Origin: Parapedobacter tibetensis
Lineage (GTDB): Bacteria > Bacteroidota > Bacteroidia > Sphingobacteriales > Sphingobacteriaceae
Direction: 5' to 3'
Length of the DNA stretch: 64,000 nucleotides
Assembly (NCBI RefSeq): GCF_024704835.1
Contig: NZ_JAMXBE010000010.1
Coordinates: 62,001 to 126,000 of the forward strand
Position numbers and translations under genes: made by a program. Shown one piece after another: positions 2,715 to 60,794 of this stretch. The notes under the pieces were generated by a model that was not told where the DNA came from, did not search any database, and saw only the letters and a list, made by a program, of their open reading frames with translations. Numbering within the stretch: position 1 is the stretch's first letter; each line of letters begins with the position of its first letter.

Positions 2715-2740
2715 TTTTAAAAAAATTTGCTTTTTTAAAA
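2715..2740. terminator. A/T-only inverted repeat after the GntR pair
   Basis: TTTTAAAAAA (2715-2724) and TTTTTTAAAA (2731-2740) form a perfect 10-bp inverted repeat around a 6-base loop, 15 bp after the stop of the second GntR gene. It could help end transcription but has no GC base pairs. It overlaps the -33 TTTG of the next promoter, so a regulatory role is as likely. Confidence 0.3.
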
Positions 2741-2775
2741 TACTCCTGTATATATTTGTTGAATATATCAGACAT
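2726..2775 (+). promoter_or_regulatory. Operator-bearing promoter of the first SusCD/sialidase locus
   Basis: TTTG (2726-2729), 21-bp spacer and TATATTTG (2751-2758) match the Bacteroidota housekeeping promoter consensus exactly. Six bases later comes ATATCAGACAT (2765-2775), which fits ATGT-N3-ACAT with one change. The operator lies on the predicted transcription start, the position for a repressor. Confidence 0.75.
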
Positions 2776-2851
2776 ATATGATGTGTTTGATTTGTATAAC
2801 TGAGAGTAACGAATTGTAGGCCTGTTTTTGGGTAATCAAGTGACTAAAAAC

Positions 2852-2862
2852 ATGTAGAACAT
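2852..2862 (+). promoter_or_regulatory. Perfect ATGT-N3-ACAT operator in the 5' leader
   Basis: ATGTAGAACAT is the exact reverse complement of the operators at 46195 and 49202. It lies about 90 bp downstream of the promoter and 52 bp before the ATG at 2914, so it could serve as a second, downstream repressor site. It is followed by AACCAATTATAAATT (2893-2907), a 15-mer also present after the operator at 49202. Confidence 0.6.
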
Positions 2863-2913
2863 AAGTATTTTAGGTTATATCAGTATAGCGACAACCAATT
2901 ATAAATTCAAGTT

Positions 2914-4056
2914 ATGATAACAGTAAAACAGCGTTTATTTGCCTTATCCGTAATCATACTCACTTTTCATATAGCCTGTATCGGTCAAAAAGCCGAATCC
3001 TCATCAGGCCTTGATACACTCAGCACCACGGATTTATCCAAAGATACCGCGAGGCACGTGATGGTGGCCCAAGGTACCGAAGAAATCTACCAAGGACACC
3101 CTACTACCGTTTTGCTCCCAGATGGAAAGACGATGTATTGCGTGTGGACTTATAACCACGGTGGGCCATGTGGCCCCTTGAAAAAGAGCCTGGATGGGGG
3201 GCTTACCTGGAGCCCGTTGCTCAATGTGCCGACCAACTGGCCGTCCGTGCGGAATTGCCCGACCATCTATCGTTTGCCAGATCCGGAGGGAAAGCACCAC
3301 TTATTCGTATTTGCGGGTACCGGTCCTGATGGGGGCATGTACCAATCCCATTCCCTCGATGAGGGCCAAACCTGGTCGCCCATGGAAAGCAATGGTGTCG
3401 GCCCAAGCGTGATGCCTTTTTGCACCATTGAACCCATCGATGGGGGAAAGAAACTGCTGGCGATGTCAAACATCCGGCGGCCCGGGGAAACCAAGGAGAA
3501 GCGATCCAACGTAGTTTCCCAAAGCATCTCAGAAGATGGGGGATTTACATGGAGCCCATGGCGTATTGTGCTTGACCTACCGGGCTTGAAACCTTGTGAG
3601 CCCGAAATCGTACGTTCGCCGGACGGCAGTGAGCTGCTCTGCCTGATCAGGGAAAATGATGAGCGCGTGGCGTTGTTTATGACCAGCAAGGATGAAGGCG
3701 AATCCTGGTCGGATGTACAGCCGTTGCCCTTTGCCTTGCATGGCGACCGCCACAAGGCGAAGTACACCTCCGATGGACGCTTGGTTGTGGTATTCCGTGA
3801 TACGGGAAATGGCAGTGAGACACGCAACCATTTTGTCGCCTGGATGGGGCATTATGAAGATATCATTCAAGGACGCCAGGGAAGTGGCCGCCTGAAGCTT
3901 TTGCATAGCTACAAGGGGGCAGATTGTGGCTATCCCGGTCTCGAAGTATTGCCGGATGATACGTTGGTGGCCACCACGTATGTCAAATACAGGCCAGGGC
4001 CGGAAAAAAATTCCGTGGTGAGTGTTCGGTTCACCTTGGATGATTTCGGCCAATAA
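2914..4056 (+). CDS. BNR/Asp-box sialidase-superfamily exported protein
   Basis: A 380-residue protein with an N-terminal signal ending in a lipobox-like HIAC (Cys22), so probably a lipoprotein. Four Asp boxes mark a six-bladed propeller: SLDGGLTW, SLDEGQTW, SEDGGFTW and SKDEGESW. The fold is that of sialidases (GH33 and relatives). The usual RIP-motif arginine is not evident at the first strand (GHPTTVLLPDG), and the C-terminal Tyr region reads GYPGLEVLPD instead of YSxL. It may therefore hydrolyse another bond or only bind glycan. It is the first gene after the operator-bearing promoter and precedes SusC by 85 bp, so it heads the locus and is likely induced with it. Confidence 0.8.
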   Translation: MITVKQRLFALSVIILTFHIACIGQKAESSSGLDTLSTTDLSKDTARHVMVAQGTEEIYQGHPTTVLLPDGKTMYCVWTYNHGGPCGPLKKSLDGGLTWSPLLNVPTNWPSVRNCPTIYRLPDPEGKHHLFVFAGTGPDGGMYQSHSLDEGQTWSPMESNGVGPSVMPFCTIEPIDGGKKLLAMSNIRRPGETKEKRSNVVSQSISEDGGFTWSPWRIVLDLPGLKPCEPEIVRSPDGSELLCLIRENDERVALFMTSKDEGESWSDVQPLPFALHGDRHKAKYTSDGRLVVVFRDTGNGSETRNHFVAWMGHYEDIIQGRQGSGRLKLLHSYKGADCGYPGLEVLPDDTLVATTYVKYRPGPEKNSVVSVRFTLDDFGQ

Positions 4057-4141
4057 ATCGAACCACAGGGGTATTGCTCCAGCAGCATATAAGTGGTTTT
4101 TTAATTAACTAACCAGTTTACAACTAACGAATGACCATGTT

Positions 4142-7100
4142 ATGATTAACCGAATTACATTTTTCTGTGCACTGCTTTATGGTGTCGTCCTGCATGTTCA
4201 GGTCGCACAAGGGCAGGAGGCCAATGCCAAGATGGTATCTGGCCGTGTTACAGCCGCCGATTCCGGAGAACCGCTGGCGGGTGTGAGTATCAAGTACGAA
4301 GGGTCTGCCGCTGGTACCGTAACCGGTGCCGATGGCAGGTACACACTAGCCATCATCGATCCCAATGGGGTGATTGTGGCTTCTTATGTCGGCTTCCAGA
4401 CCCTCCGGGTTGATATTGGAGGGCGCGATGAAATCAATATCAGGCTTGAGCCGGGCATGGAGGCGTTGGAGCAAGTCGTGGTAGTGGGCTATGGCACGCA
4501 ACGGCGTAAGGACATCACCGGCTCGATCGCCGAAGTATCCAGCGAGGACATCCAAAACCAGCCACTGGTGAGCATAGACCAGCTCTTGCAGGGAAAGGCT
4601 TCCGGTGTTCAGATATCAAATTCATCGGGTGCCCCCGGGGGCCGCGTGAATATTCGTATCCGTGGTGCAAGTTCGGTAAACGCGGGCAATGAGCCGCTGT
4701 TTGTGATAGACGGTATACCCGTTTACAACAGCAACATGGATCCAAGCGGCACTTCCTATGACACATTTACCCCCACGAACGCGTTGGCTTCGTTAAACCC
4801 GAATGACATCGAATCCGTAGCGATACTGAAAGATGCATCGGCGACCGCTATTTACGGTTCCAGGGGAAACAATGGCGTGGTGCTGATTACCACCAAAAGG
4901 GGGAGCGGCGAACAGGTCCAGATCGACTACAACGGGTACTATGGGACGCAAAGCCTCGTCCGGAAATTAGATTTGATGAACGGCAGCGAGCATGCAGCGT
5001 TTTTAAACGACTGGGCAACCGAAGGGGGGTTGCCCCAACCATTTCCCGACCCCAGCGCAATCGGAAATGGTACCGATTGGCAAAAGGAGGTATACCGTAC
5101 CGCCCCGATGCAGAACCATCAGCTATCGCTTTCCAGTGGAAGGGGCGATACACGCTATTTCATTTCGGCCAACTATTACAACCAGGATGGAATCGCGTTG
5201 AACTCGTCGATGGACCGCTATTCGCTGCGGATCAATACCGACCATAAAATAGGTAAGAAATTGACGTTTAGCCAATCCCTCACGTATAGCAAAACCATCA
5301 ACCAGGCGGTACCTACTAACAGTGCGGGCTCGGATAATATCCGGTCGGTTGCCGACAAGGTGTTCGCCACATCGCCTACCATCCCGGTGTTTGATGAAGA
5401 TGGAAATTATGTGACCGACTGGTATGGGGGGGGCAAGACCGAAAGCCCCGTGGCCTCCTTGTTGAGCATCCACAACCAGCTTACCGGAGACAACGTGTTG
5501 GGCAACCTTTCGCTGGGGTATGAAATCATCGAAGGGCTTACCTTCAAGACGCTTTGGGGAGTGAACCTCATGAACCGGAGCAATGAGGAGTATTACCCGG
5601 CGGAAACCACCTATCTGGGCGGTCTTTTGGGCGGATTGGGGCTGCTTTCGGAGCGGAAATCCACCAATGTGTTGAACGAAAATACCCTGCATTTTACCAG
5701 AAACTTCCATGAAACACACCAGCTCGATGTCCTTGGGGGATTCACCTGGCAAACGGAAAGCATCAAGCAATCGTCTACCCAGGCGTCCGATTTCCCGCAT
5801 GACCGCTTCGGTGTGGATAACATCGGGAGTGCATCCGGGGTTCCGGATGTCAGTTCATCCGTCAATGAATGGGGCCTCGCTTCTGTAATCGGTAGGGTAA
5901 ACTACGCGTATAAAAACAAATACTTGGTTACCACCACCCTCAGGGCCGATGGATCCACAAAGTTTGGAAGCGGCAACAAATGGGGGTACTTTCCTTCGTT
6001 TGCACTGGCCTACCGCCTATCCGCGGAGGAGTTCATGAAAGGCCAACAGGTCATCAATGATTTGAAAATCAGGACGAGCTACGGCATTACGGGCAACCAG
6101 GAGATTGGCAGTTACCAATCGCTGGCCCGCGTGACCACCAACGATATTTACATCATAGACGGGCAATTGGTTTCCGGCGCAAGCCAGGTCAGTTTGCCCA
6201 ATAGCGGGTTAAAATGGGAACGGGCCGCCCAATGGGATATCGGCTTGGATATTTCCCTGTTCGACAATGCGCTGAATGTGGTCTTTGATTACTACAGGAA
6301 GAAAACGCATGACTTGCTTTTCCAAGTGAATTTGCCAGCCTATTCAGGCTATAGCAGTGCGTTGTATAATACGGGCAACTTGGATAATACGGGTTTTGAG
6401 GTCAATATCGGGAGCGACATCCAGCTGGGTGCTTTCGCCTGGAACATCAATGCCAACTATTCGAGGAATAAAAGCGAAATGGTCTCCTTGGGCCGGTCGG
6501 CATCCACCTCGCTGTTTCTGGGGCACCCGCCCGGAGCCATCAGGGGATACACCTATGATGGGGTATTCCATAACCAGGCAGAAATAGATGCACAACAGGT
6601 ACAGCTGGGGGTGAAGCCCGGTGATGCGAGGTATCAGGATACGAATGGGGATGGCCAATTGAATGCGGATGACCTGGTGATACTGGGCAACCCGCTGCCC
6701 GACCACATCTTCGGCTTGAACAACAATTTTGCGTATAAGGGCTTTACGCTGGGCGTATTCCTGCAGGGGGAGCTTGGGATGGATGAAATGCATGGGGTTT
6801 CCATCTTGAATCCTGCTGCCGGAGGGAGCAATAAGCTCAGGACCTTGCTGGGCCGATGGACCCCGCAAAATACCGAAAGCAATATCCCGAGGGCCAATGT
6901 GGGCAACTGGCTGGGATCGTCGACCTATAACCTGGTCGATCGCTCCTATGTCAAAATCAGGAACATCCAGCTGGGCTATGACATCCCCGCCAGCCTTATC
7001 CCTCGCTTCAGGCGGTTAAATGTATATGTCTCGGGGCAAAATATGATTACATTCACAAAGGATTACCCGGGATATGACCCCGATGGGGGCAGGCACTATC

Positions 7101-7144
7101 CGACGGCCCGCACGGTCATATTTGGTGTTAATCTTGGACTTTAA
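4142..7144 (+). CDS. SusC/RagA-type TonB-linked outer membrane transporter (locus 1)
   Basis: A 1000-residue protein with a signal peptide (cut near VAQGQ), a CarboxypepD_reg-like domain (about 30-108: VSGRVTAADSGEPLAGVSI...GFQTLRV), the SusC signature VVVVGYGTQRRKDITGS (about 111-128) and a plug domain to about 240 (VNIRIRGASSVNAGNEPLFVIDG, ATAIYGSRGNNGVVLITTK). The rest is a 22-strand barrel ending in the aromatic-rich terminal strand (TVIFGVNLGL). SusC proteins import oligosaccharides across the outer membrane with a SusD lid, powered by TonB. The partner SusD follows after 20 bp. The position between a sialidase-like protein and sialate-type transporters suggests a nonulosonate-containing oligosaccharide as cargo; this is inferred. 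Confidence 0.95.
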   Translation: MINRITFFCALLYGVVLHVQVAQGQEANAKMVSGRVTAADSGEPLAGVSIKYEGSAAGTVTGADGRYTLAIIDPNGVIVASYVGFQTLRVDIGGRDEINIRLEPGMEALEQVVVVGYGTQRRKDITGSIAEVSSEDIQNQPLVSIDQLLQGKASGVQISNSSGAPGGRVNIRIRGASSVNAGNEPLFVIDGIPVYNSNMDPSGTSYDTFTPTNALASLNPNDIESVAILKDASATAIYGSRGNNGVVLITTKRGSGEQVQIDYNGYYGTQSLVRKLDLMNGSEHAAFLNDWATEGGLPQPFPDPSAIGNGTDWQKEVYRTAPMQNHQLSLSSGRGDTRYFISANYYNQDGIALNSSMDRYSLRINTDHKIGKKLTFSQSLTYSKTINQAVPTNSAGSDNIRSVADKVFATSPTIPVFDEDGNYVTDWYGGGKTESPVASLLSIHNQLTGDNVLGNLSLGYEIIEGLTFKTLWGVNLMNRSNEEYYPAETTYLGGLLGGLGLLSERKSTNVLNENTLHFTRNFHETHQLDVLGGFTWQTESIKQSSTQASDFPHDRFGVDNIGSASGVPDVSSSVNEWGLASVIGRVNYAYKNKYLVTTTLRADGSTKFGSGNKWGYFPSFALAYRLSAEEFMKGQQVINDLKIRTSYGITGNQEIGSYQSLARVTTNDIYIIDGQLVSGASQVSLPNSGLKWERAAQWDIGLDISLFDNALNVVFDYYRKKTHDLLFQVNLPAYSGYSSALYNTGNLDNTGFEVNIGSDIQLGAFAWNINANYSRNKSEMVSLGRSASTSLFLGHPPGAIRGYTYDGVFHNQAEIDAQQVQLGVKPGDARYQDTNGDGQLNADDLVILGNPLPDHIFGLNNNFAYKGFTLGVFLQGELGMDEMHGVSILNPAAGGSNKLRTLLGRWTPQNTESNIPRANVGNWLGSSTYNLVDRSYVKIRNIQLGYDIPASLIPRFRRLNVYVSGQNMITFTKDYPGYDPDGGRHYPTARTVIFGVNLGL

Positions 7145-7164
7145 CGATACTAAACGAATTTATC

Positions 7165-8685
7165 ATGAAACATATCGGTAAAACCACAATAGGATTTATT
7201 GCATTATTATTTTGCATGGTTACATCATCCTGTGAAAAATTTCTCGAGGAGGAACCGCGTGGTTTTCTCTCTCCCGATAATTTCTACGAGAACGAACAGG
7301 ATTTGTTCACCGCGTTGGTGGGGGTATATGATGGCTTGGGCGATAACGGCCAGAGTTTTTTGGCCAGAAGGCTGCATTACCTGACCTGGTTTACGGCTGG
7401 GGAAGCATTTTCCCCCTCGTTAGCCGAGCAGCGATTGCTCAGCAACTACACCTTTACGAATGACCACGGCGACATCAACCGGGTATGGACAAGCATGTAT
7501 GCGGGCATTGTAAGGGCCAATAACGTGATCAACCGGGGAGCAGGTGTACCTATGGATGAATCCCGCAAGCAGCAGTACATTGGCGAAGCCAGGTTTTTAC
7601 GCGCGCTCTTTTATTTTTACGGTGTTCGCCTATGGGGCGCCTTGCCGTTGATTACCGAAGAAGTGGCATCAATCGACGACGTCAATGTGCCTCGCAACCC
7701 GGTGCACGAGATATACCAGCAGATCATCACGGATTTGGAATTTTGCATACAAACGGTGCCGCCGACCAACCAGCAAGGACGCACTTCATTGGGAGCTGTA
7801 AAAGCATTGCTGGCGAAGGTATATTTGACCAGGGCTTCATCCGCGGCTGCTGGCGACAATGACTATCAGCTGTGTGCGGATTTATGCAAGGAAGTAATCG
7901 ATATGCCTGAACATCACCTGATGCCTGATTACCAGCAGGTTTTTGGTCCGCCGAATGAGTTTAACCCGGAGTCTTTATTTGAATGGCAGGGCGACAGAAA
8001 CCTGTCGCCCTTGGGCGAACTCAGTCCGCTCGGGGCCTTTTCCATGCCAAGGGGGATCAAACTGTTCGAAGAGCAGGGGCCTTCAGACGGGGGCGGGATT
8101 GTGAGCACCGTTGACTATTTTAATCTTTACCAAGAGGAAGATTACCGGAGGGAATCAACCTTTGTTACCGGAGGCGTTAATTTTGAGGGGGAATGGCTTA
8201 CCTGGCAGCAGTTTACCAATCCTTACCCGGCGCCCTGCCTGAAATATATAGATCGGACGGCCACTTCCCGCAACGGATTCGAATGGGGCGGTAATTTTAT
8301 CGTGTTACGCCTGGCTGATGTATATTTAATGCGGGCGGAGGCGATGAACGAAGTGGGTGGCCCCTCGGACGAAGCGTATGACATGATCAATGAAATACGG
8401 GGACGCGCCAGAAACCGGAATGGCCAACCTTCCGCATTTCCGGAAGACGTGGCCGACCTTAACCAAGACGAATTCAGGGACGCGGTATTGCACGAGAGAG
8501 CCATTGAATTGGGCTTTGAAGGGCATCGTTGGTTTGACTTGGTCAGGACATCACGATTGGTGGAAACCCTGAAAGCCATCGACCCTACCTTGCCGGTTAT
8601 GGATAAGCACCTGTTATTTCCGATACCTCCTGATGAATTGATTTTAAACCCTTTGCTAACACAAAACCCCGGATGGGGAAACTAA
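7165..8685 (+). CDS. SusD/RagB-type surface glycan-binding lipoprotein (locus 1)
   Basis: A 506-residue lipoprotein (lipobox TSSC, Cys23) with the SusD N-terminal region (EKFLEEEPRGFLSPDNFYENEQDL), the TPR-like helices (GEARFLRALFYFYGVRLWGALPLI) and the C-terminal motifs LRLADVYLMRAEAMNEVGG, ERAIELGFEGHRWFDLVR and LLFPIPPDEL. It caps the SusC barrel encoded just upstream and captures glycan at the cell surface. Length is normal and no defect is seen. Confidence 0.95.
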   Translation: MKHIGKTTIGFIALLFCMVTSSCEKFLEEEPRGFLSPDNFYENEQDLFTALVGVYDGLGDNGQSFLARRLHYLTWFTAGEAFSPSLAEQRLLSNYTFTNDHGDINRVWTSMYAGIVRANNVINRGAGVPMDESRKQQYIGEARFLRALFYFYGVRLWGALPLITEEVASIDDVNVPRNPVHEIYQQIITDLEFCIQTVPPTNQQGRTSLGAVKALLAKVYLTRASSAAAGDNDYQLCADLCKEVIDMPEHHLMPDYQQVFGPPNEFNPESLFEWQGDRNLSPLGELSPLGAFSMPRGIKLFEEQGPSDGGGIVSTVDYFNLYQEEDYRRESTFVTGGVNFEGEWLTWQQFTNPYPAPCLKYIDRTATSRNGFEWGGNFIVLRLADVYLMRAEAMNEVGGPSDEAYDMINEIRGRARNRNGQPSAFPEDVADLNQDEFRDAVLHERAIELGFEGHRWFDLVRTSRLVETLKAIDPTLPVMDKHLLFPIPPDELILNPLLTQNPGWGN

Positions 8686-8694
8686 ACAATAACT

Positions 8695-9624
8695 ATGCAA
8701 CATGTAATTGCCTTAGACCAAGGCTTAAGTAAATTCCAACCGCTTAAACACGTCATCTGTTATGACGATTTTGATCGGGGTATGTGCGGTTGGTTGGATT
8801 TACACCCCAATTATGTAGGAACCGATTTCAACACGCTCCGTTACAGCCATGTGGATAAAACGCAGTGGGGTCCCCTCATGCTCAGTTCGGCCAGCTTCCG
8901 TTTTGCGGGCACGCATGGTTCCTTGGATGGTACGTATTCGCTGAAACTATCCACCAGGCCCATAGCTAATCCCTACACCGAAGCGCCCGCACCGGGTAGC
9001 CTATCGCATGGCATCAAACGCATGACCACCCACTTGCCGAAAGGGCTCAAGCAGTTTGAAATGTGGTATGCCTATACTCCCGAGCAGGACCGGCAGGGCC
9101 TCAGCGAACAGGCCATGCGGGCATTCGGGTTTTTTTTCGATGTGCAGGACGATGACTACCGGTATTTTATCGGTGCCCGCTACCTCAACGCGGTGGATGG
9201 AAACATGGTGCGGAAATGGCAGATCTTCCAAGCGAAGGACGTGACCGACCTGGAGTGGGCCTATGGGGTGGAGAATGATTGGTGCAAGCACGGGGTAGAT
9301 GCCATGTGGTATGGAAAGCGCTATCCGGATGGTTCTACGGATGGCTTTGAATGGATAGACGGCGGTTACCAAGACCTCTGTTATAACGAAAGTGACGATA
9401 AAATCAACTGGAGCTACCTGCGCTTAACGATCGATACCGAGAAGCGGGAGTATGTGGCCCTCCAATCTGGCAATACCATCTTTGACCTGAGGGGGATGAA
9501 GCCTACCCTCACCGCTCCTTATGCGCGGATCAAGGGCTTGTTCAACCCCAGCATTTGGGTAGAGAACGATACGGATAGAAGGGTGTTTTTATATGTAGAT
9601 TCCATTGTTATATCAGGAGCGTAA
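8695..9624 (+). CDS. Uncharacterised beta-rich protein without signal peptide
   Basis: A 309-residue protein starting MQHVIALDQG with no signal peptide or membrane segment, so it should be cytoplasmic. It is rich in aromatic residues and beta strands, with an opening segment of the type seen in concanavalin-like jelly rolls (ICYDDFDRGMCGWLDLHPN), a central FGFFFDVQDDDYRYFIGARY and a closing strand VFLYVDSIVISGA. I think it may match a DUF family (perhaps DUF6772) but am not certain. It starts 9 bp after SusD and is followed after 6 bp by another small unknown gene and then a symporter, so it is translated within the locus. A role in handling an imported sugar is possible but has no direct support. 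Confidence 0.7.
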   Translation: MQHVIALDQGLSKFQPLKHVICYDDFDRGMCGWLDLHPNYVGTDFNTLRYSHVDKTQWGPLMLSSASFRFAGTHGSLDGTYSLKLSTRPIANPYTEAPAPGSLSHGIKRMTTHLPKGLKQFEMWYAYTPEQDRQGLSEQAMRAFGFFFDVQDDDYRYFIGARYLNAVDGNMVRKWQIFQAKDVTDLEWAYGVENDWCKHGVDAMWYGKRYPDGSTDGFEWIDGGYQDLCYNESDDKINWSYLRLTIDTEKREYVALQSGNTIFDLRGMKPTLTAPYARIKGLFNPSIWVENDTDRRVFLYVDSIVISGA

Positions 9625-9630
9625 AATTAG

Positions 9631-9966
9631 ATGAGACATTTTCATGCATCGGCGGTAGAGCGCCGCATTACAATAAACAATACCTTAGCATCCCATCCCA
9701 TGGAGACGGGATGGGCTGCAGAGGCCATTTTCTTTTTAATCGTAGAGGAGGTAGCGGGCATGGACACCCTGCTGGAAGCGGAAGTAGAAATTTCTGCCGA
9801 TGGGATCAACTGGATCCCGGAAGGAACGGTCTTTCCGGTAATCAGCAAACCGGGGCATTACCATGCCAAGGTATCCCATTTTGGCAATTGGCTTCGTGTA
9901 CGGGGCGAGCTGAAGGGAACGCATACATCCATGAAACTGTCTGTCCACTTGCACCTCAAGGCGTGA
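9631..9966 (+). CDS. Small hypothetical beta-strand protein
   Basis: A 111-residue protein, MRHFHASAVERR..., with no signal peptide and no recognised domain. The sequence alternates short strands (AEVEISADGINWIPEGTVFPV, GNWLRVRGELKG) in the manner of a single beta-sandwich. It lies 6 bp after the 8695 gene and its stop is almost directly followed by the symporter start at 9968, so it is part of the same transcript. It may be a partner of the preceding protein; function unknown. Confidence 0.6.
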   Translation: MRHFHASAVERRITINNTLASHPMETGWAAEAIFFLIVEEVAGMDTLLEAEVEISADGINWIPEGTVFPVISKPGHYHAKVSHFGNWLRVRGELKGTHTSMKLSVHLHLKA

Positions 9967-9967
9967 T

Positions 9968-11428
9968 ATGCACCAAATAGATTACATTATACTGGTCGTT
10001 TATTTTGTCGGCGTACTGACACTCGCGGGGATTTTCAGCAAATCGCAAAAATCCTTGAAGGACTTTTTCCTGGGTAGTGGCAATATCCCCTGGTGGGCGG
10101 CGGCTTTCTCCGGCATTGCCACGGTAGCCAGTGCCATTGCATACATCGGCGGGGTAGGGCTGGGGTTTAGCAGCGATTTTTCCTTTTTGCAATACCGGCT
10201 TGCCCTACCAATCGCCATCACGGTGATCTGTGTGGTTATTTTACCGTTTTTTTATAACTTGAAGCTGTACTCCATTTACGAATACCTCGAAAAGCGCTTT
10301 AATTTGACCATTAGGTTGCTGGGAAGCGCCCTCTTTATCCTCTTCAAAAGCTGCTTTTTGGCCATCGGCATTTATGCGCCGGCGATCATCCTCAGTACGC
10401 TGACCGGGATGGATATCATCTGGATCGTATTGATTACCGGTGTGTTGACCACGTTATATACCTTGATGGGCGGGATGAAGGCGGTCATCTGGACCGACGT
10501 ACCACAATTGATTATCATGCTGGGTGGCATATTTGTCATCATCGGTATTGGTATTGCGGGTGTGGACGGGGGCATTGCGGAAGTAATCAGTTTGGGCAAG
10601 GCGCATAACAAATTCGACTATTTCAATTTCTCCCCCAAGCTCACGGATACGTACACGGTTTGGAGCGGCATCATTGGCGGCACGTTTTTGATTATCTCGC
10701 AGTTTGGAGCCGACCAGTCGGAGATGCAACGTTTTCTAACGGTTAACTCGCTGCGGAAATCCAATTTTGCACTCATTACATCGGTTTTATTCGCTACCGT
10801 ATTGGGGTTTTTGATTTTCTTTGAGGGTGCCGTCCTCTTTGCTTTTTATGAGCAGCGAGGTAGGGCCGCCGATATCGGAACGAATGAGGTCTTCATCCGC
10901 TTTGTCATCGACGAGCTGCCCGTAGGTGTACGGGGGTTTTTGATTGCCGCGTTATTCGCCGCGGCGATGTCGACCATCAGTTCCGTACTGAACTCATTGA
11001 CCACCGTATTTCTCTCCGATTTCTACAATCGGTTTAAAGAGAAGGAAGCGACGGTTTCGCTGGCCCGGATGGTCACCTTGATCATCGGCTTTTTTTCGAC
11101 ATTATTGGCTTGCCTTGGCGGGTACCTGGGCAATATCTTGGAAGCCGCCACCACCGTCATCAACTTTTTTGGCGGCGCGCTTGTCGGCATATTCCTGCTG
11201 GGGATGCTCAGCAAAAGCACTGGCCCTAAGGGGGCATTGGTGGGTTTTATAGCCGGTTTCGCCGTCGTGTTGGCGATAGCGGGATTAACCGACGTATCCT
11301 ACATGTGGTATAGCGCCATCGGCGGGACAGTCACCTGTTTGTCCGGTATGCTAACCAGTTGGTTAACGAAAGACAGTCCACGTGAAGAGCAATTGCTATT
11401 GGTCTACCGGAGGAAAAGAAAAAGATAA
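9968..11428 (+). CDS. Sodium:solute symporter (SSS family)
   Basis: A 486-residue inner membrane protein with about 13 hydrophobic segments. SSS hallmarks include the N-terminal YFVGVLTLAGIFSKSQKSLKDFFLGSGNIPWW, the unwound TM1 region (SGIATVASAIAYIGG), the TLMGGMKAVIWTDVPQ segment and the TM8 sodium-site region AALFAAAMSTISSVLNSLTTVF. The family includes sialate (NanT/SiaT) and glucose symporters. It starts 1 bp after the preceding stop, and its own stop lies 4 bp before a second, propeller-fused symporter, so two SSS transporters are produced from one message. Sialic acid or a related sugar acid is a likely substrate by context only. Confidence 0.93.
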   Translation: MHQIDYIILVVYFVGVLTLAGIFSKSQKSLKDFFLGSGNIPWWAAAFSGIATVASAIAYIGGVGLGFSSDFSFLQYRLALPIAITVICVVILPFFYNLKLYSIYEYLEKRFNLTIRLLGSALFILFKSCFLAIGIYAPAIILSTLTGMDIIWIVLITGVLTTLYTLMGGMKAVIWTDVPQLIIMLGGIFVIIGIGIAGVDGGIAEVISLGKAHNKFDYFNFSPKLTDTYTVWSGIIGGTFLIISQFGADQSEMQRFLTVNSLRKSNFALITSVLFATVLGFLIFFEGAVLFAFYEQRGRAADIGTNEVFIRFVIDELPVGVRGFLIAALFAAAMSTISSVLNSLTTVFLSDFYNRFKEKEATVSLARMVTLIIGFFSTLLACLGGYLGNILEAATTVINFFGGALVGIFLLGMLSKSTGPKGALVGFIAGFAVVLAIAGLTDVSYMWYSAIGGTVTCLSGMLTSWLTKDSPREEQLLLVYRRKRKR

Positions 11429-11432
11429 ACCT

Positions 11433-14087: not shown

Positions 14088-14100
14088 GATTAAGAGCTAA

Positions 14101-15426: not shown

Positions 15427-15455
15427 CTATGATGGCAGTTTAATTAAAGAAATGA

Positions 15456-16784: not shown

Positions 16785-16839
16785 AACGATCAACATATTG
16801 CTCTGCGGGAAATCTGGAACGAGTATCTAACTAATAATA

Positions 16840-18301: not shown

Positions 18302-18348
18302 TTTGCAAATAACAATAACCCTAGTATAATTATCAATATGTAGATCAT
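18302..18348 (+). promoter_or_regulatory. Operator-bearing promoter of the second SusCD locus
   Basis: TTTG (18302-18305), 19-bp spacer and TATAATTA (18325-18332, weak fit to TAnnTTTG). Five bases later is ATGTAGATCAT (18338-18348), ATGT-N3-ACAT with one change. The surrounding 25 bp (ATCAATATGTAGrTCATAATA) are almost the same as at the promoter before 44325. Confidence 0.65.
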
Positions 18349-21617: not shown

Positions 21618-21630
21618 AAATTAAAGAATC

Positions 21631-23511: not shown

Positions 23512-23555
23512 AGGTTATGAAAAAAATAACATTGGAACTTTAAAACACTCGTTTT

Positions 23556-29405: not shown

Positions 29406-29413
29406 TATCGGAT

Positions 29414-32641: not shown

Positions 32642-32665
32642 ACAAACGAGCAAACAAATAAGCAA

Positions 32666-35725: not shown

Positions 35726-35758
35726 AATGGAAAAAAGTCATAAACGAAAAAAAAGGGC

Positions 35759-37252: not shown

Positions 37253-37268
37253 CCGATAATATACCGAT

Positions 37269-37655: not shown

Positions 37656-37772
37656 GAAATAATAAATAAAACCCCCAGCATACAAAACGGTTCGGTCTAG
37701 CCCTTGCAGGGTAATCGGCTAGTTTGTACTATTGCATTGAAAATTATTTTAAACCAATAAAAAAACAAGAAA

Positions 37773-38138
37773 ATGAAACGAAAATTAAACAAAATCAGCA
37801 TGGTCGTGGTAGCCACGGTAATGTTTTGTGCAATAATGTTCTTGAGTATGGAAAAAAACGAACAGGACGAATGGGAGTTTGCGGCTGTGAGTGCGTCTGC
37901 GCAGGGTGGGGATGGAGAGAGTGGCGGAACACTTAAACAATACTATGATAACGACCCCCTACCGTGTGTAGGTACCGAAACCAGGCATTGCGATATTGCG
38001 ATCGTTATTCCGGGAACTGCCATTTATTGCAGTGTAGGGTTTGATTATACCGTTGAGTTTGACGGCACGCAAAACTACTGCGACTATACAGGTAATCCCC
38101 AAACCTACTGCAATTATCACACATGCCAGAGGAATTGA
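37773..38138 (+). CDS. Small cysteine-rich NVEALA-like secreted peptide
   Basis: A 121-residue protein. It has a basic start (MKRKLNK), a hydrophobic stretch (8-25), then an acidic linker leading to AAVSASAQGGDGESGG (37-52). That linker recalls the NVEALA-family pattern, in which a leader with an NVEALA-like motif precedes a mature Cys-rich part. The mature part has six cysteines (65, 73, 86, 103, 113, 118), an even number that would suit three disulfides. NVEALA proteins are small Bacteroidota proteins of unknown function, usually next to six-bladed propeller lipoproteins, as here: a propeller gene starts 17 bp downstream. The leader motif is degenerate, so the family call is tentative; a secreted Cys-rich peptide is the safer description. 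Confidence 0.65.
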   Translation: MKRKLNKISMVVVATVMFCAIMFLSMEKNEQDEWEFAAVSASAQGGDGESGGTLKQYYDNDPLPCVGTETRHCDIAIVIPGTAIYCSVGFDYTVEFDGTQNYCDYTGNPQTYCNYHTCQRN

Positions 38139-38155
38139 AGCTAAGGCATTATGGC

Positions 38156-39385: not shown

Positions 39386-39396
39386 ATTTCTAAAAG

Positions 39397-40305
39397 ATGT
39401 TGGCATGTACGCGGTCGCTAATAAGTCTGCTGGTATTCCCCGGTGTTATAATCGGGTGTGCCCAAATCGGTAAGGATGATTCTCCTCAAGAAGCGCGTGA
39501 AATGACTAGGAAAGAACGGATTCTTTCTGGTACTTTAGAAGCCAACATCCTAGCCTCTGGGAGTTTTTATCTCGATGATACGTCTCCAATTTATGATGAA
39601 GAAGGTAAACGAGTGTTTCTTAGTGAATTAGTCAATGGGACAGGTAGTCTTGTATTGCGGTTTTCCCCATCGAACTGCATAGATTGTATCTTAGCCGAGA
39701 TGGAAAACATAAATTATGCTATGTCAGGAAGCATTGAGGACGATGTTGTTTTTCTTTCGTCCTTCCAGAATATTAACCAATTAAGGATATTTAAACGGGA
39801 CCACAACATACCGTATGCACTATACAATACCAGCGAGTTTGAAAATGATTTGCCTCGGTATCTTGAGGACCTACATGTCCCCTACTATTTCATTGCAGAT
39901 ACGACCCGGCTTTGTGACAATCTTTATGTGCCTGAAAAAGAGCTAGCATCGATGTCTACCTTTTATTTAAAGGAAGTCGCTGAAAAGCTCAAGCGGGAAA
40001 AGGAAAAAGGAATCGTGTTTAAAAACACAATGATAGAGCAAGATGGGAGCTCCGGGAAACCATTGTCCTTTGTGTTTTCATACAGAAATGAGATGGACAT
40101 TCCTTTGATTATCAAAGATGTCCGTGCCTCATGTAATTGTACTGCCGTCTCCTACGATAAACATCCTATCCAACCCGGTGAACGTGCGGAAATCCAGATA
40201 GAATATAATTCTGATATAGAAGGCTATTATTTCAAGAAAATCATAGTGGAAAGCAATTCTCCGAAAGGCAAGGTGTTGCTTACTATCAAAGGCAATCTTA
40301 CCTAA
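39397..40305 (+). CDS. Lipoprotein with thioredoxin-like and DUF1573 domains
   Basis: A 302-residue lipoprotein (IIGC, Cys21). Residues about 45-185 look like a thioredoxin/TlpA-type fold with a CIDC active-site pair (Cys94/Cys97, SPSNCIDCILAEM). Residues about 205-300 are a DUF1573 Ig-like domain (SFVFSYRNEMDIPLIIKDVRASCNCTAVSYDKHPIQPGERAEIQIEYNS...IIVESNSPKGKVLLTIKGN). With a six-cysteine peptide two genes upstream, a disulfide-forming or reducing role on that peptide is an attractive inference. It ends the intact part of the peptide operon; degraded genes follow. The gene looks noticeably richer in A+T than the efflux operon. Confidence 0.83.
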   Translation: MLACTRSLISLLVFPGVIIGCAQIGKDDSPQEAREMTRKERILSGTLEANILASGSFYLDDTSPIYDEEGKRVFLSELVNGTGSLVLRFSPSNCIDCILAEMENINYAMSGSIEDDVVFLSSFQNINQLRIFKRDHNIPYALYNTSEFENDLPRYLEDLHVPYYFIADTTRLCDNLYVPEKELASMSTFYLKEVAEKLKREKEKGIVFKNTMIEQDGSSGKPLSFVFSYRNEMDIPLIIKDVRASCNCTAVSYDKHPIQPGERAEIQIEYNSDIEGYYFKKIIVESNSPKGKVLLTIKGNLT

Positions 40306-44147: not shown

Positions 44148-44195
44148 TTTGGTATATAACAGTAAAGTGTTTATATTTATCAATATGTAGGTCAT
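44148..44195 (+). promoter_or_regulatory. Operator-bearing promoter before the 44325 BNR gene
   Basis: TTTG (44148-44151), 20-bp spacer, TATATTTA (44172-44179), 5 bp, then ATGTAGGTCAT (44185-44195), an ATGT-N3-ACAT site with one change. The sequence around it (ATCAATATGTAGGTCATAATA) is nearly identical to that of the promoter at 18302. It lies in a 266-bp gene-free gap (44059-44324). Confidence 0.7.
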
Positions 44196-44324: not shown

Positions 44325-46088
44325 ATGGCTTTTTTAAAAATATCCTGGTCTTTCCTCGCTTTGTATGGCATACTCGTTGTCGTGCCGGATGTTCATTCAC
44401 AAACGTTGGAAATATTCAATCCGCTGTCGGATCAGGTGTATAGTGACGATTTTGACGACGAAACGGAAGCGAGGAGCCCAAGCCATTGGATAGAAAACAA
44501 TAGGCACGATTACTGGTCTGTCGTCAGGGGTGATGCCAATAAAGCGTATCGTGTGAAGAGCAACGAAGTTTCGACCTATTCGTGGCTGCATGTATTCGAA
44601 AAGAACGTCACATTCGATGTCCGCTTCAAGGTCGTTGAAATTGCTGAAGAGGATGCTGAACTAAAGTTTGCGGTGCGGTTCAATGATTATGAAGCGCTGG
44701 TATACGTGGGATATGATTTCAAAACCGAAAAATGGTATATCGCCGAACAACGGGGTAAGGATTTTGAGCAGGTCAATTTTGAGCAGGTCATAGATGTCAG
44801 CCGCAATTTGGAGCCGTTGAAACGGGGCGATTGGCACAATATTCGGGTGCTTTCTAATAATGAGACAGTGACGGTTTATATTGACGACATGACGCGACCC
44901 AAATTATGGGCTACGGATATCAGGCACCAGTCTCCGGGGCGCGTGGCTTTGAGCGCATACAACGCTACCGTTGACTTTGATGATGTGGTGCTGAACCTCC
45001 GGAGTGGGCAAGGTCGGGTAAACGAGGGTGTATTGGAATACACGATAGGGGATGACGATCGCTTTAGGGAAGGCGCGTCGATTGTGGAAAAAAGCAACGG
45101 TGATCTCTTGCTATTGCATCGTGCAGAAGAATTCCACTCCTCGGATCAAGGCCAAACGTTCACAGGTCCATACCCGTTTAGTTGGCCAAAGAACGAGCAT
45201 GGGCATCATAGCGTCCTCCGGTTACAATCGGGGAAGCTGTTGAATATGGTAGCAGAGCGTTTCGGCCAAGGGGCACGATTTAGAGCCAAACTTTCAAGCG
45301 ATGATGGTGCTACCTGGGCGGATGGAGGGGTGACATGGGAAGCCTATCGCGAAGGGCTCCCCGGCAAATCCGAAGTGATTGTAATGAATGATAAATTGAC
45401 CCAGGTGCCCGGCGGACGGGTCTTCTTCGTGGTGCCAGCCAGAAAAGACGATGGAGAGAAAATAGTCGGTCATAAAACAGAAATCTATTATTCGGATGAC
45501 GAAGGTAAAACGTGGAACCAATCGAAGAACGACTCGGACGACTTCACGAAGCTCAGCCGGTATGCGGAAGGGAAAGTCATCCAAACCTCGGACGGGACAT
45601 TAAGATTGTATACCCCCTGGACCCACGCCCACAGCGTGCGGTATTCGGAATCCCACGACAACGGGGAGACCTGGAAGGGGGACTTTGCGTTGGATCAATT
45701 CAGGAACGCAAGGTCATCCTTTGCCTTGATACAGGACATGTATGCATCACGACCTACGTTTTACATGGTATGGGTATATAATAACATGTATGATACGGAC
45801 ATTGTGTTTTTACCTCGTTCGCGGTTGGGCTTAGCCAGAAGCTATGATGGTATCAATTGGGAGTACATGATGGATGTGGAGCGGTGGATAAGCCCAGCCA
45901 AGAAAGATAGACGGATAATCACCCAGATTCTTGATCCGAGCCTGACCGCCACAGACAAATATCTGTATGTGACCATCGGCCGGTCCGACCGGGCAGCCGA
46001 CAATGGCCACAATCATCAGCGGCTGCGGGTATACCGGATTGAGAAAGCGAAATTGCATCCCTACGCCACATGGCCTAACGAATTTTAA
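44325..46088 (+). CDS. Exported protein with LamG/ConA-like and BNR sialidase-superfamily domains
   Basis: A 587-residue protein with a signal peptide (MAFLKISWSFLALYGILVVVPDVHSQ). Residues about 37-225 form a concanavalin-like domain (YSDDFDDETEARSPSHWIENN..., ELKFAVRFNDYEALVYVGYDF, DWHNIRVLSNNETVTVYIDD, GRVALSAYNATVDFDDVVL). From about 235 a propeller begins with Asp boxes SSDQGQTF, SSDDGATW, SDDEGKTW and SHDNGETW. The sialidase RIP arginine and a YSxL tyrosine are not evident, so the catalytic class is uncertain; it may be another glycosidase or a binding protein. It is a single-gene unit between two operator-bearing promoters. Confidence 0.78.
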   Translation: MAFLKISWSFLALYGILVVVPDVHSQTLEIFNPLSDQVYSDDFDDETEARSPSHWIENNRHDYWSVVRGDANKAYRVKSNEVSTYSWLHVFEKNVTFDVRFKVVEIAEEDAELKFAVRFNDYEALVYVGYDFKTEKWYIAEQRGKDFEQVNFEQVIDVSRNLEPLKRGDWHNIRVLSNNETVTVYIDDMTRPKLWATDIRHQSPGRVALSAYNATVDFDDVVLNLRSGQGRVNEGVLEYTIGDDDRFREGASIVEKSNGDLLLLHRAEEFHSSDQGQTFTGPYPFSWPKNEHGHHSVLRLQSGKLLNMVAERFGQGARFRAKLSSDDGATWADGGVTWEAYREGLPGKSEVIVMNDKLTQVPGGRVFFVVPARKDDGEKIVGHKTEIYYSDDEGKTWNQSKNDSDDFTKLSRYAEGKVIQTSDGTLRLYTPWTHAHSVRYSESHDNGETWKGDFALDQFRNARSSFALIQDMYASRPTFYMVWVYNNMYDTDIVFLPRSRLGLARSYDGINWEYMMDVERWISPAKKDRRIITQILDPSLTATDKYLYVTIGRSDRAADNGHNHQRLRVYRIEKAKLHPYATWPNEF

Positions 46089-46156: not shown

Positions 46157-46205
46157 TTTGGAATTGTAAATATATTGTTTCTATATTTGTTGATATGTTC
46201 TACAT
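46157..46205 (+). promoter_or_regulatory. Operator-bearing promoter of the two-sulfatase operon
   Basis: TTTG (46157-46160), 21-bp spacer, TATATTTG (46182-46189), 5 bp, then the perfect inverted repeat ATGTTCTACAT (46195-46205). The first in-frame ATG of the downstream frame (46195) is inside this operator, at the predicted transcription start, so it cannot be the translation start. Confidence 0.8.
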
Positions 46206-46233
46206 AATAAAGTGGAGCCAATTATTGACCCAT

Positions 46234-47694
46234 ATGAAACGCCCAAGACCATTCACCGCGATTGTATTGTTATTACTGGTGACCCTATGCAACATCAGCA
46301 TGGCGGCTGCCCAGCCTCCGCAAAAACCGAATATCATTGTATTTCTTGTCGATGATCTGGGATATAGCGATGTGAGTTGCTACGGTAGTGATTACTATGA
46401 AACCCCTCATATCGATCAGCTGGCCGAATCGGGGATGCGGTTTACCGATGCATATGCCAGCAGCACGCTCTGCTCGCCGACACGGGCAAGCCTACTCACC
46501 GGCAAAAATCCCGCTCGTTTACACATTACCCATGCCATTCCCATTCAGGGATACAGACGTATCGATGGGGGAAAGGGTACCCCGTTGAAAGATGCGGACT
46601 ATGTGATGAACCTGCCACTGGAGGAAGTGACGATCGCCGAGGCGTTGAAGGTTGGTGGCTATGCCACTGCCAGTATCGGCAAATGGCATGTCTGCGATGA
46701 CTTAGCCTATTACCCCGAATACCAGGGTTTTGATGTCAACATCGGCGGCAACCACCATGGACATACGGGCGAACATTTCTATCCATACCACGGCCGGTGG
46801 CGGATGGCGGAGGGTCATCCCTGGGTAGAATGGAACACACTCCCTGATGGGGAACAGGGGGAGTATCTAACCGACCGGTTGACCGCTGAAGCGGTCGATT
46901 TTATAGCAGACAACAGCGATAGGCCTTTCTTTCTATATTTATCTCACTATGCCGTGCATACACCGATCCACGCGAAAAAGGACATTCAGGAGCGTTATGA
47001 ACAGAAGGCCCCGGATTCGCTGAAAGGGCATGTGAAACCGGCCTACGCCGCCATGATTGAAAGCGTTGATGCCAGCATGGGAGCCATCATGGAAAAACTA
47101 GCGGCCTCCGGGCTTGCGGAAAATACCATTGTGATCTTTGCCTCCGACAACGGGGGGCATGGTAGACAGACGTCGAATTATCCCTTCCGGGGCAACAAGG
47201 GCAACTTCTATGAAGGCGGAATCCGGGTGCCACTGATCGTCCGCTGGCCGGGGGTCACCAACCGGACGTCGGTTTCGGAAACGCCGGTGATCACGACTGA
47301 CCTCTATCCGAGTATACTGGACATGGTGGGCCTGCCCCTGATGCCCGATCAGCATCGGGACGGTGTCAGCTTGGTTCCTGTGCTCAAGCAGGAGGGGACG
47401 CTGGCACGGGAGGCGCTTTATTGGCATTTTCCGAATTATGTAGGTACCGGCCATCCCAATCCAGCTACTCCGCTAAGCGCAATCCGGTATCACGACTGGA
47501 AGCTGATCGAATCCCTCGAAGATGGCACGCTGGAGCTGTATGATTTGAAGACTGATCAGGAAGAATTGTATAATTTAGCCTCGTCAAATAGGAAAATGGC
47601 CAAATCCCTCCAGCAGATGCTGGAGATATGGAGAAACCAAATCGATGTACAGATGCCCGAGATCAATCCTGCATACCAAAAAACAGAAAAATGA
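46234..47694 (+). CDS. Type I sulfatase (S1 family, arylsulfatase-like)
   Basis: Start ATG 46234 (MKRPRPFTAIVLLLLVTLCNISMAAAQ) gives a signal peptide; the earlier ATG at 46195 lies in the operator. The product has 486 residues. Sulfatase features: NIIVFLVDDLGYSDVSCYGSDYYETPHIDQLAESG, the formylglycine motif CSPTR at Cys80 followed by ASLLTGK, GKWHVCDD, SHYAVHTPIHAKKD, SDNGGHGR and LIVRWPG. It acts outside the cytoplasm on sulfated glycans. It differs from the sulfatase at 16840 and from its partner at 47691, so at least three sulfate linkages may be addressed. Its stop overlaps the next start by four bases. Confidence 0.93.
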   Translation: MKRPRPFTAIVLLLLVTLCNISMAAAQPPQKPNIIVFLVDDLGYSDVSCYGSDYYETPHIDQLAESGMRFTDAYASSTLCSPTRASLLTGKNPARLHITHAIPIQGYRRIDGGKGTPLKDADYVMNLPLEEVTIAEALKVGGYATASIGKWHVCDDLAYYPEYQGFDVNIGGNHHGHTGEHFYPYHGRWRMAEGHPWVEWNTLPDGEQGEYLTDRLTAEAVDFIADNSDRPFFLYLSHYAVHTPIHAKKDIQERYEQKAPDSLKGHVKPAYAAMIESVDASMGAIMEKLAASGLAENTIVIFASDNGGHGRQTSNYPFRGNKGNFYEGGIRVPLIVRWPGVTNRTSVSETPVITTDLYPSILDMVGLPLMPDQHRDGVSLVPVLKQEGTLAREALYWHFPNYVGTGHPNPATPLSAIRYHDWKLIESLEDGTLELYDLKTDQEELYNLASSNRKMAKSLQQMLEIWRNQIDVQMPEINPAYQKTEK

Positions 47695-49145
47695 GATCCA
47701 TTCAATCCAAACTTTTCGTTGTGCTCTGCCTGGTGTTGAGTAGTCTGCAGGTGCTTGCCCAAGGGGACGAAAAACGTAAGAATGTCCTTTTCTTCCTGGT
47801 AGACGACCTTCGGCCGAACCTGAGGTGCTATGGTGATCAACGCGCGTTGACACCGAATATTGACAGATTAGCAAAGCAAGGCATCCTATTCAACAACGCC
47901 CATTGCCAACAAGCCGTGTGCAGTCCCTCGCGGACCTCCATGCTGACCGGATTGCGGCCGGATGAGACGGGCGTTTACGACCTGCAAAGCCATTTCAGGG
48001 ATCATGTGCCCCATGCCATAACACTTCCCCAGCGGTTTAAAAATCAGGGTTATTTCACGACAGGCGTCGGAAAAATCTTCCATAACTCAAAAAACACCCT
48101 CGATCCCATCTCGTGGACGAAGGAAGTATCGCCGGTGAGCGGCACCACCTATGTGCTCCCTGAAAACCGACATGGAGGCGGCAAGCAGCGCATTACGGAA
48201 ATGGCCGATGTGCCTGACACCGCATATGCCGACGGAATGATAGCCGAGGGTGCCATCTGCTTGCTGGAGGAGGCTAACCAGCTAGATGACCCTTTTTTTA
48301 TTGCGGTAGGCTTTAAGAAACCGCATGCGCCCTTTTGCGCACCAAGGAGGTATTGGGACCTGTACGACCGTTCGGCATTTCGTGCGACGGATAAGGCCCG
48401 ACCCATAGGCAGCCCGGATCTGGCATTTCATCAATGGCAGGAACTCAGGGGGTATAATGATATTCCGGATGAAGGCGGCATTTCGCCCGAACAGGAGCAA
48501 GAAATCATCCATGGATATTACGCCTGCATCAGCTATGTAGACACACAAATCGGAAAAGTAATGGATCGATTGGAAACACTTGGTTTGAGTGACAATACGG
48601 TTATTGTGCTTTGGGGTGACCATGGTTACCACCTGGGGGAGCAGGATTTATGGTGTAAATCCACCAATTTTGAGTTGGATACCCGGGTGCCGTTGATCGT
48701 TGCATCACCCGGTATGCGAGGAAATGGCAGCAAGACCGATGCCATGGTGGAATCCGTGGATATTTATCCCACGTTGAATGACTTGTGTGGCATTATGCCG
48801 ATGGATGGCTTGTCCGGAATCAGTTTACGGCCACTGTTGGACAATCCCTCGGCAGTATGGGGATACCCTGCTTTTAGTCAGTTTGTGCGGCCTTATCAGG
48901 CCATTCTCAAAAAAAACAGGCCAACACATATGGGGTACTCGGTTCGCCTAGCAGGGTGGCGGTGTACGTATTGGTATGATTTGGAAAAAAATGCCGTGGT
49001 TGAACGGGAGTTGTATCGGCTGGATGGTCACGGCCCTGAACGTGAAAACGTTACAGGCCAGCATGCGGTATCCGAGGTGGAAGCGCAGCTGGCTGTACTG
49101 ATCGATCAGTACAGCCATAATACGTACGTGAAATCAAGCCGGTAA
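47691..49145 (+). CDS. Sulfatase of the iduronate-2-sulfatase-like group
   Basis: The frame is open from 47628, but the ATG at 47691 (MRSIQSKLFVVLCLVLSSLQVLAQ) provides the signal peptide and overlaps the preceding stop as ATGA, a sign of translational coupling. The product has 484 residues. Features of the iduronate-2-sulfatase-like group: NVLFFLVDDLRPNLRCYGD, the CSPSR motif at Cys77 (CQQAVCSPSRTSMLTGLRPDETGVYDL), ITLPQRFKNQGYFTTGVGKIFH, GFKKPHAPFCAPRRY and WGDHGYHLGEQDLWCKSTNFE. Members remove 2-O-sulfate from uronates and related sites; the true substrate here is not fixed by sequence. Confidence 0.92.
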   Translation: MRSIQSKLFVVLCLVLSSLQVLAQGDEKRKNVLFFLVDDLRPNLRCYGDQRALTPNIDRLAKQGILFNNAHCQQAVCSPSRTSMLTGLRPDETGVYDLQSHFRDHVPHAITLPQRFKNQGYFTTGVGKIFHNSKNTLDPISWTKEVSPVSGTTYVLPENRHGGGKQRITEMADVPDTAYADGMIAEGAICLLEEANQLDDPFFIAVGFKKPHAPFCAPRRYWDLYDRSAFRATDKARPIGSPDLAFHQWQELRGYNDIPDEGGISPEQEQEIIHGYYACISYVDTQIGKVMDRLETLGLSDNTVIVLWGDHGYHLGEQDLWCKSTNFELDTRVPLIVASPGMRGNGSKTDAMVESVDIYPTLNDLCGIMPMDGLSGISLRPLLDNPSAVWGYPAFSQFVRPYQAILKKNRPTHMGYSVRLAGWRCTYWYDLEKNAVVERELYRLDGHGPERENVTGQHAVSEVEAQLAVLIDQYSHNTYVKSSR

Positions 49146-49164
49146 TTAAAAAAATCAACTTTAA

Positions 49165-49212
49165 TTTGCATCGGATAGTAGAACTCCATATATTTGTGAA
49201 TATGTTCTACAT
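49165..49212 (+). promoter_or_regulatory. Operator-bearing promoter of the PKD/sialidase/SusCD operon
   Basis: TTTG (49165-49168), 20-bp spacer, TATATTTG (49189-49196), 5 bp, then the perfect ATGTTCTACAT (49202-49212), identical to the operator at 46195. AACCAATTATAAATT follows at 49222-49236, as it does in the leader of the 2914 gene. The leader from here to the ATG at 49342 is about 130 nt. Confidence 0.8.
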
Positions 49213-60793: not shown

Positions 60794-60794
60794 A

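Follow-up and report, generated by a model that had tools for sequence, protein, structure and literature searches.

A predicted operator of an FCD-type GntR regulator at sialic-acid-type operons of Parapedobacter tibetensis

We analyzed a 64,000-nucleotide stretch of the Parapedobacter tibetensis genome (the window; positions 62001–126000 of contig C2 in a 5.98 Mb genome, with sites given in window numbering), which encodes two GntR-type regulators together with genes that look like a sialic acid/sulfated glycan system. The first, GntR1, an FCD (FadR-type) protein, is the likely regulator of the sialic-acid-system operons; it would act through the near-palindrome (A/T)TGTnCTACA(T/A) and respond to a sialoglycan breakdown product, and the second, GntR2, would use an operator of its own. 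A first-pass annotation of the window had placed five promoters (before 2914, 18450, 44325, 46234 and 49342) in one unit under both regulators. Its five site positions were correct, and the proposed link between a local operator and an FCD-type GntR protein was supported; joint control was not, as GntR1 fits four of the five sites and the fifth, at 2765, looks like GntR2's own operator. The motif, its distribution, conservation and linkage were computed, and binding, repression, operon structure and inducer are predictions.

The GntR1 Operator

GntR1 (1145–1849, + strand; 234 aa) is a predicted regulator with Pfam matches to FCD (1.2e-17) and GntR (8.1e-17), and its relatives carry the operator. 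Relatives were sought in 201 genomes of the family, 24 of which contain a close one (≥58% identity, a limit picked after the list was seen). Of these 24 relatives, 21 (that of P. tibetensis included) have a WTGTnCTACAW site in the 220 bp before the gene, and 20 have one in the 450 bp after it; upstream of the regulator gene it occurs in both orientations and across genera.

A site matrix was assembled from 19 sites upstream of GntR1 relatives, none of them from the P. tibetensis genome; the window's own relative was excluded, as were L057, L058 and L071, which show no clear site, and L069, whose site lies at another distance. A scan of 144 kb around the window returned nine matches scoring 16.0–22.5 and no other at 11 or above. 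These comprise TTGTCCTACAT before gntR1 (1078–1088, +; 22.5), a site at 2852–2862 (ATGTTCTACAT on the − strand; 17.2), 18338–18348 (ATGATCTACAT on the − strand; 16.9), 44185–44195 (ATGACCTACAT on the − strand; 16.0), 46195–46205 and 49202–49212 (both ATGTTCTACAT on the + strand; 20.6), and three sites past the window end at 71359, 77648 and 86472. Because a matrix trained on the GntR1-linked sites of other genomes recovers them and nothing else at 11 or above, GntR1 is probably their regulator, and the predicted site before its own gene suggests self-control. The first-pass observation was largely real, four of its five sites being recovered by the matrix; 1078 and 2852 within the window and the three sites beyond it had been missed.

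A second collection of named genomes (63 of 64 loci used, L205 being left out; several Dyadobacter and Runella entries are near copies) gave a site scoring at least 14 at 18 of the 20 loci that reach ≥60% identity; when the three congeners that had contributed to the matrix are set aside, the count is 15 of 17. The proportion was 21 of 32 at 50–60% identity and 6 of 11 below 50%, and a site appeared in 1.3% of the shuffled flanks of all 63 loci. This collection includes Runella, Dyadobacter and Niabella, which lie outside the family.

The 13-mer ATATGTTCTACAT, present at 46195 and 49202, was found in 13 of the 24 family genomes that encode a close relative of GntR1 versus 25 of the 177 that do not (Fisher p 3e-5). 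Those 13 genomes hold 24 copies, of which 16 (five of them from P. tibetensis) share a contig with the regulator and are no more than 100 kb away from it. Genome G073 carries three copies on another contig, before homologues of the sulfatase at 46195, the SusC at 77694 and the sulfatase at 82386, and G063 carries two before a homologue of the 77694 SusC, likewise on another contig; these copies suggest that the regulator acts in trans.

We compared three congeners, Parapedobacter pyrenivorans (G078), P. indicus (G093) and P. composti (G045), in which GntR1 and GntR2 are encoded on separate contigs, each with its own gene set. With GntR2 elsewhere, GntR1 still adjoins homologues of the same targets, directly followed by those of 47628 onward in P. 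composti and of 77694 onward in P. pyrenivorans and P. indicus. In P. tibetensis, ~46 kb, with the genes linked to GntR2 and an efflux block among them, separate GntR1 from 47628, and this DNA may have moved in between.

Promoters and Genomic Distribution

At all five promoters of the first pass (2765, 18338, 44185, 46195 and 49202), TTTG lies 19–21 bp upstream of the −7 box, and the box lies 5–6 bp upstream of the site. The box reads TATATTTG at 2765 (2751–2758, serving the 2914 operon), 46195 (46182–46189) and 49202 (49189–49196); 18338 has a weak −7-like box, TATAATTA (18325–18332), and 44185 has the −7-like TATATTTA (44172–44179), all on the + strand. Exact ATGT-N3-ACAT was found at 46195 and 49202 alone, the other three sites being ATGT-AGA-TCAT (18338), ATGT-AGG-TCAT (44185) and ATAT-CAG-ACAT (2765). 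Of the TTTG / TATAtTTg / ATGT-N3-ACAT architecture said to be common to these promoters, TTTG and both spacings therefore hold in five of five, the full box in three and the exact palindrome in two.

The exact site begins 5 bp after TATATTTG at five promoters (46195, 49202, 71359, 77648 and 86472). The published −7 box is TAnnTTTG (PMC4306948), and with this spacing the site would cover the transcription start. The earlier placement of the operator at the predicted start of sialidase-like, sulfatase and SusCD operons agrees with the 5–6 bp distance.

In the whole genome, the full architecture has four exact matches, all within one ~40 kb stretch, and a reversed-pattern control has none. The 13-mer ATATGTTCTACAT has five, on one strand and in the same stretch (control 0); the 11-base core of every copy lies 5 bp downstream of TATATTTG, and three copies (71359, 77648 and 86472) are past the window end. 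A looser pattern, TTTG-N4-7-ATGT-N3-ACAT, gave 14 genome matches versus five in the control, five of the 14 being these sites. The bare palindrome ATGT-N3-ACAT is weakly enriched in the window, with four matches versus a shuffle mean of 1.07 (4 of 100 shuffles reach four); two of the four, 2852 and 3463, were absent from the first-pass list. We take 3463 as a chance match, because it lies within an open reading frame (ORF) and scores below 9 on the matrix. Chance as the source of the motif as a whole is ruled out by the full-architecture and ATATGTTCTACAT counts against their controls and by the matrix scan.

Five promoters on one strand share an identical box at an identical 5 bp distance, which would also be expected if modules had been duplicated together with their upstream DNA, the palindrome then being part of a copied promoter and no operator. 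This is highly improbable: the DNA around the motif differs from promoter to promoter, and the motif also precedes the gene of the regulator, in either orientation and across genera.

A motif equally common at unrelated promoters, which the first-pass annotation had named as a ground for abandoning the idea, was not what a partial check found. The 22 genome matches to WTGTNCTACAT divide into seven in the locus, one at C2:28516, two other intergenic ones and 12 inside ORFs; eight matches in ~120 kb compare with 0.56 expected from the control count (p ~1.5e-7, for a stretch defined post hoc). The C2:28516–28526 site (L086) is an isolated, operator-like sequence 2 bp past TTTG and just upstream of a BNR sialidase-like gene, ~33.5 kb before the window. 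The two other intergenic matches lack the TAnnTTTG box: C1:256060 (score 20.6) is flanked by a gene for an amino acid permease and one whose product has a secretion-tail domain, and C4:192774, which scores 15.6, lies 26 bp upstream of a gene read as AraC-type from its sequence. Both are probably chance matches.

GntR2 and Its Predicted Operator

GntR2 (2001–2699, + strand) is an FCD-type GntR paralogue ~50% identical to GntR1, with a Pfam FCD match of 1.8e-19 and a GntR domain above cut-off; its start codon is inferred, the ORF opening at 1920. The Pfam matches settle the predicted fold of both regulators. Relatives in the three congeners share 75–76% identity, and relatives at E ≤1e-70 occur in only 4 of the 201 family genomes, all of this genus.

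The sequence ATATCAGACATATATG (2765–2780, +) contains CAGACATATATG and has no GntR1 matrix match. Because CAGACATATATG recurs in the interval that separates GntR2 from the gene following it, in four of four genomes, and is present just once in the P. tibetensis genome, 2765 is best read as a probable GntR2 operator. We rejected 2765 as a fifth copy of the GntR1 operator, its conserved sequence being different, and also ATGTnnGACAT alone as the GntR2 motif, which is too loose and matches genes too. GntR2 looks like a diverged paralogue whose own predicted operator sits in the promoter region of the 2914 operon next to it. Homologues of 2914, 8695, 9631 and 9968 follow GntR2 in all three congeners, and those of the SusCD pair 4142/7165 in two.

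The site at 2852 lies in the predicted leader of this same operon and fits GntR1. A second GT-N3-AC site follows CAGACATATATG by 22–83 bp in all four genomes, reading ATGTAGAACAT in P. tibetensis, ATGTAGGACAT in P. pyrenivorans and ATGTTTGACAT in P. composti and P. indicus.

Evolution of the Regulator Family

In a tree of 91 relatives, the proteins fall into groups according to the amino acid that follows VSR in the recognition helix: Thr in 35 proteins on one side of a branch (94/86), Ser in four (100/100), and Asn in the other 52, with the Ser group nested inside. L081 (no protein located), L156 and L202 (broken frame) and L205 (Deinococcales, 31% identity) were left out, as were the duplicates L169, L142 and L143 (same as G045, G078 and G093); the tree program cautioned that the GntR2 and Niastella branches may have been joined wrongly. 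Matches to WTGTNNNACAW stood close to 39 of the 52 Asn genes, 31 of the 35 Thr genes and all 4 Ser genes, and occurred in 4/104, 1/70 and 0/8 of the respective shuffled segments. The spacer is nCT in 63 of 72 Asn-group sites and nAT or ATT in 25 of 32 Thr-group sites, and G stands beside ACAT in 3 of 4 GntR2 loci. The rule is imperfect, as the remaining Asn-helix spacers do not fit nCT and the Niastella group departs from it. One helix residue and the operator spacer change together, which makes these proteins a natural regulator series. By alignment with FadR, the residue after VSR would be helix position 39 of a FadR-type regulator survey. In that survey position 39 correlates with the bases beside the operator centre, Asn preferring A/T (PMC4494728), and this agrees with the nCT spacers of the Asn group.

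The GntR1 relatives of Niastella and Longitalea without the consensus are L163–L168, L200, L201 and L204. Five of them for which the upstream DNA was read carry AAGTATTACAT or AAGTCTTACAT, a possible further operator variant.

These spacers bear on whether GntR2 or another FCD paralogue binds all the sites and GntR1 only some, the family sharing a loose ATGT-N3-ACAT code. The GT-N3-AC frame is common to the paralogue clades, 2852 fits GntR1 despite its place in a GntR2-linked leader, and the genome holds 13 first-look GntR candidates, two of which pass 1e-30. We nevertheless regard this arrangement as unlikely, given that the spacers are clade-specific, close GntR2 relatives are few, and the motif accompanies GntR1 in genera without them.

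Sialic-acid-type genes lie in the flanks of 24 of 31 Thr-helix loci, and 27 of 32 Asn-helix loci have either such a gene or SusC/D in their flanks. Two Thr-type loci of Flavobacteriaceae contain BNR and GlcNAc-2-epimerase genes, one of them also a NANM-SSF fusion. A broader scheme can be offered tentatively, being somewhat less probable than its negation: this FCD GntR family, ranging from Sphingobacteriaceae and Chitinophagaceae to Spirosomataceae and Flavobacteriaceae, may be the principal sialic acid regulator in Bacteroidota other than Bacteroides, with one ATGT-N3-ACAT frame whose middle bases vary with the helix residue (Asn nCT, Thr nAT, Ser nnG). In P. tibetensis two such regulators with different codes may have been brought together, and the GntR2 promoter, with sites for both (2765 and 2852), may form a two-input switch.

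Gene Content of the Locus

Operon limits in the stretch were predicted from gene spacing, and all genes described here lie on the + strand where coordinates of operons are given. The GntR2-linked predicted operon (2914–18276), supported by Pfam matches and congener gene order, encodes a BNR protein, SusC, SusD, DUF6772, an SSF symporter, a NANM-SSF fusion, an FAD oxidoreductase, a BNR sialidase-like protein and a sulfatase. Behind GntR1-type sites, Pfam identified SusC, SusD and two DUF5000 proteins (18450–26072), a BNR-repeat, sialidase-like protein (44325–46088) and two sulfatases (46234–49145); the start codon of the first sulfatase (46234) is inferred, the listed ORF opening within the operator. 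A further predicted operon extending past the window end (49342–63614) encodes a PKD/laminin-G protein, a BNR sialidase-like protein, two fasciclin proteins, SusC, SusD and one protein without a Pfam match. The latter (60795–63614, 939 aa) follows a fasciclin gene and has same-order homologues in G045, G007 and G111.

Three SusC/SusD pairs stand behind GntR1-type sites (18450, 54490 and 77694). The regulon extends ~22 kb beyond the window, apart from the one outlier before it, and the stretch also contains a sialate-acetylesterase-type protein at 72696, a NANM-symporter fusion at 88916 and a ROK protein (Pfam). The product of 87993 is a lyase-like aldolase whose best NCBIfam model is N-acetylneuraminate lyase, at 175 bits versus a cut-off of 281. 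BNR repeats alone are no proof of sialidase activity.

The unrelated block that had been described as splitting the regulon is indeed present at 28311–40305. This operator-free block encodes HlyD, an RND pump, LytTR, beta-propeller and DUF1573 proteins, a second RND pump recognized by position and size only, and an outer-membrane-factor candidate recognized by position only. Two fusions of an NANM-type (kelch) domain with a sodium:solute symporter occur at 11382–14087 and L007:4916–7519, and another lies beside a related regulator in Arenibacter (L173). The protein encoded at L007:8810–9802 has DUF6695 and a TseH-like domain, PF25218, whose description likens it to type VI effectors, and its homologues adjoin the same genes in the three congeners.

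Discussion

In the mechanism that we propose, GntR1, probably a dimeric repressor, would bind (A/T)TGTnCTACA(T/A) in front of gntR1 and where transcription is predicted to begin in no fewer than seven operons (18450, 44325, 46234 and 49342, plus 71427, 77694 and 86528 beyond the window). The predicted products of these operons are sialidase-like proteins, sulfatases, SusCD pairs, a sialate-esterase-type protein, an N-acetylneuraminate-lyase-like aldolase and a NANM-symporter fusion. A GntR1 dimer over the site would block transcription initiation, and a sialoglycan breakdown product, most likely sialic acid, would lift the block by binding the metal site of the FCD domain. GntR2 would act through 2765–2780 at the 2914 promoter.

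The gene content makes sialic acid the probable inducer, and the zinc ligands of E. coli NanR (Asp172, His176, His222 and His244) align to Glu154, His158, His202 and His224 of GntR1, the three metal-binding His being the same and Asp replaced by Glu. NanR Arg128 also aligns to the same residue in GntR1. Alternatively, GntR1 may regulate these operons in response to another glycan part, such as a sulfated sugar or uronic acid, with sialic acid incidental; this overlaps our preferred explanation and differs from it in the inducer alone. Sulfatases, an alpha-galactosidase-type gene and a GH106-type gene in the same stretch would suit such a signal, as would the mostly unconserved Neu5Ac pocket. 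We find it doubtful, though a serious contender, in view of the recurrent neighbours, which include sialidase-like, lyase-like aldolase and NANM-SSF genes.

Several observations weigh against control by GntR1 with a sialoglycan-derived inducer. The 10-base pattern WTGTNCTACAT alone shows no genome-wide enrichment (22 matches versus 28 in the control), and the intergenic matches C1:256060 and C4:192774 have no link to glycans. The sites at 18338 and 44185 each have one deviant arm and a poor −7 box. Nine Niastella/Longitalea relatives with the same helix residue, and also L145, L159 and L161, have no matrix match, and a sialic-acid-type gene was found in just 9 of 32 Asn-helix loci (flanks of up to 4 kb on each side). 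Most Neu5Ac contacts of E. coli NanR are not conserved in GntR1: Asn165, Arg203, His214, Asn215, Ser218 and Gln221 align to Lys, Tyr, Ala, Ala, Gly and Thr, in a region where the alignment is uncertain. Finally, the locus limits, like the relatedness limit, were fixed only after the data were seen. The proposal names its regulator, an exact operator of 11 bases and the promoters concerned, so that a single purified protein or a single deletion strain would be enough to test it.

Both regulators have Pfam GntR and FCD domains above cut-off, as FCD/FadR-type proteins do, and a palindromic operator with a GT-N3-AC core goes with them, by association only. The best NCBIfam model of both is NanR (2.9e-28 and 1.8e-25), although their scores against NF003011 (99.1 and 89.9 bits) fall well below its cut-off of 260. 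A GntR-type repressor of sialic acid use is reportedly present in Bifidobacterium breve (cited in PMC5512079), which would share both the regulator type and the sugar but belongs to another phylum. In the open-access literature (titles and abstract starts; subscription papers and RegPrecise lay outside the scope), we found no GntR sialic acid regulon in Bacteroidota, no description of sialoglycan gene switching in Bacteroidota outside gut Bacteroides, and no operator of the GntR1 type. The first-pass annotation knew of no description of the arrangement; for its kind, a precedent exists in AusR of Zobellia.

E. coli NanR controls its sialoregulon by GGTATA repeats, with an operator downstream of the RNA polymerase site (PMC8012715). 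It resembles GntR1 as an FCD-type GntR protein with sialic acid genes and such an operator position, and differs in its GGTATA direct repeats, the palindrome ATGT-N3-ACAT taking their place in P. tibetensis; the conserved site of GntR1 relatives is WTGTnCTACAW, not a GGTATA-repeat operator. The Bacteroides NanR (BT0433) likewise regulates sialic acid genes in Bacteroidota, but is a ROK-family protein and not a GntR one (PMC3878776). The operators of the FadR subfamily (FadR, LldR and PdhR) have the GT-N3-AC core seen here, and Asn39 goes with A/T beside the centre; the survey's arm is TKGT with an Arg-linked G, compared with ATGT in P. tibetensis, and the survey's FadR set, as excerpted, is without any Bacteroidetes protein (PMC4494728). 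In Zobellia galactanivorans, AusR is a GntR repressor of alginate genes at several promoters, released by breakdown products (PMC8286568, PMC7874173); it is thus a GntR repressor at several promoters of a Bacteroidota polysaccharide system, for alginate where P. tibetensis would use sialic acid. The operator is new to our open-access search and the kind of regulator is known: GntR1 joins E. coli NanR and Zobellia AusR among the FadR-type members of the GntR family.

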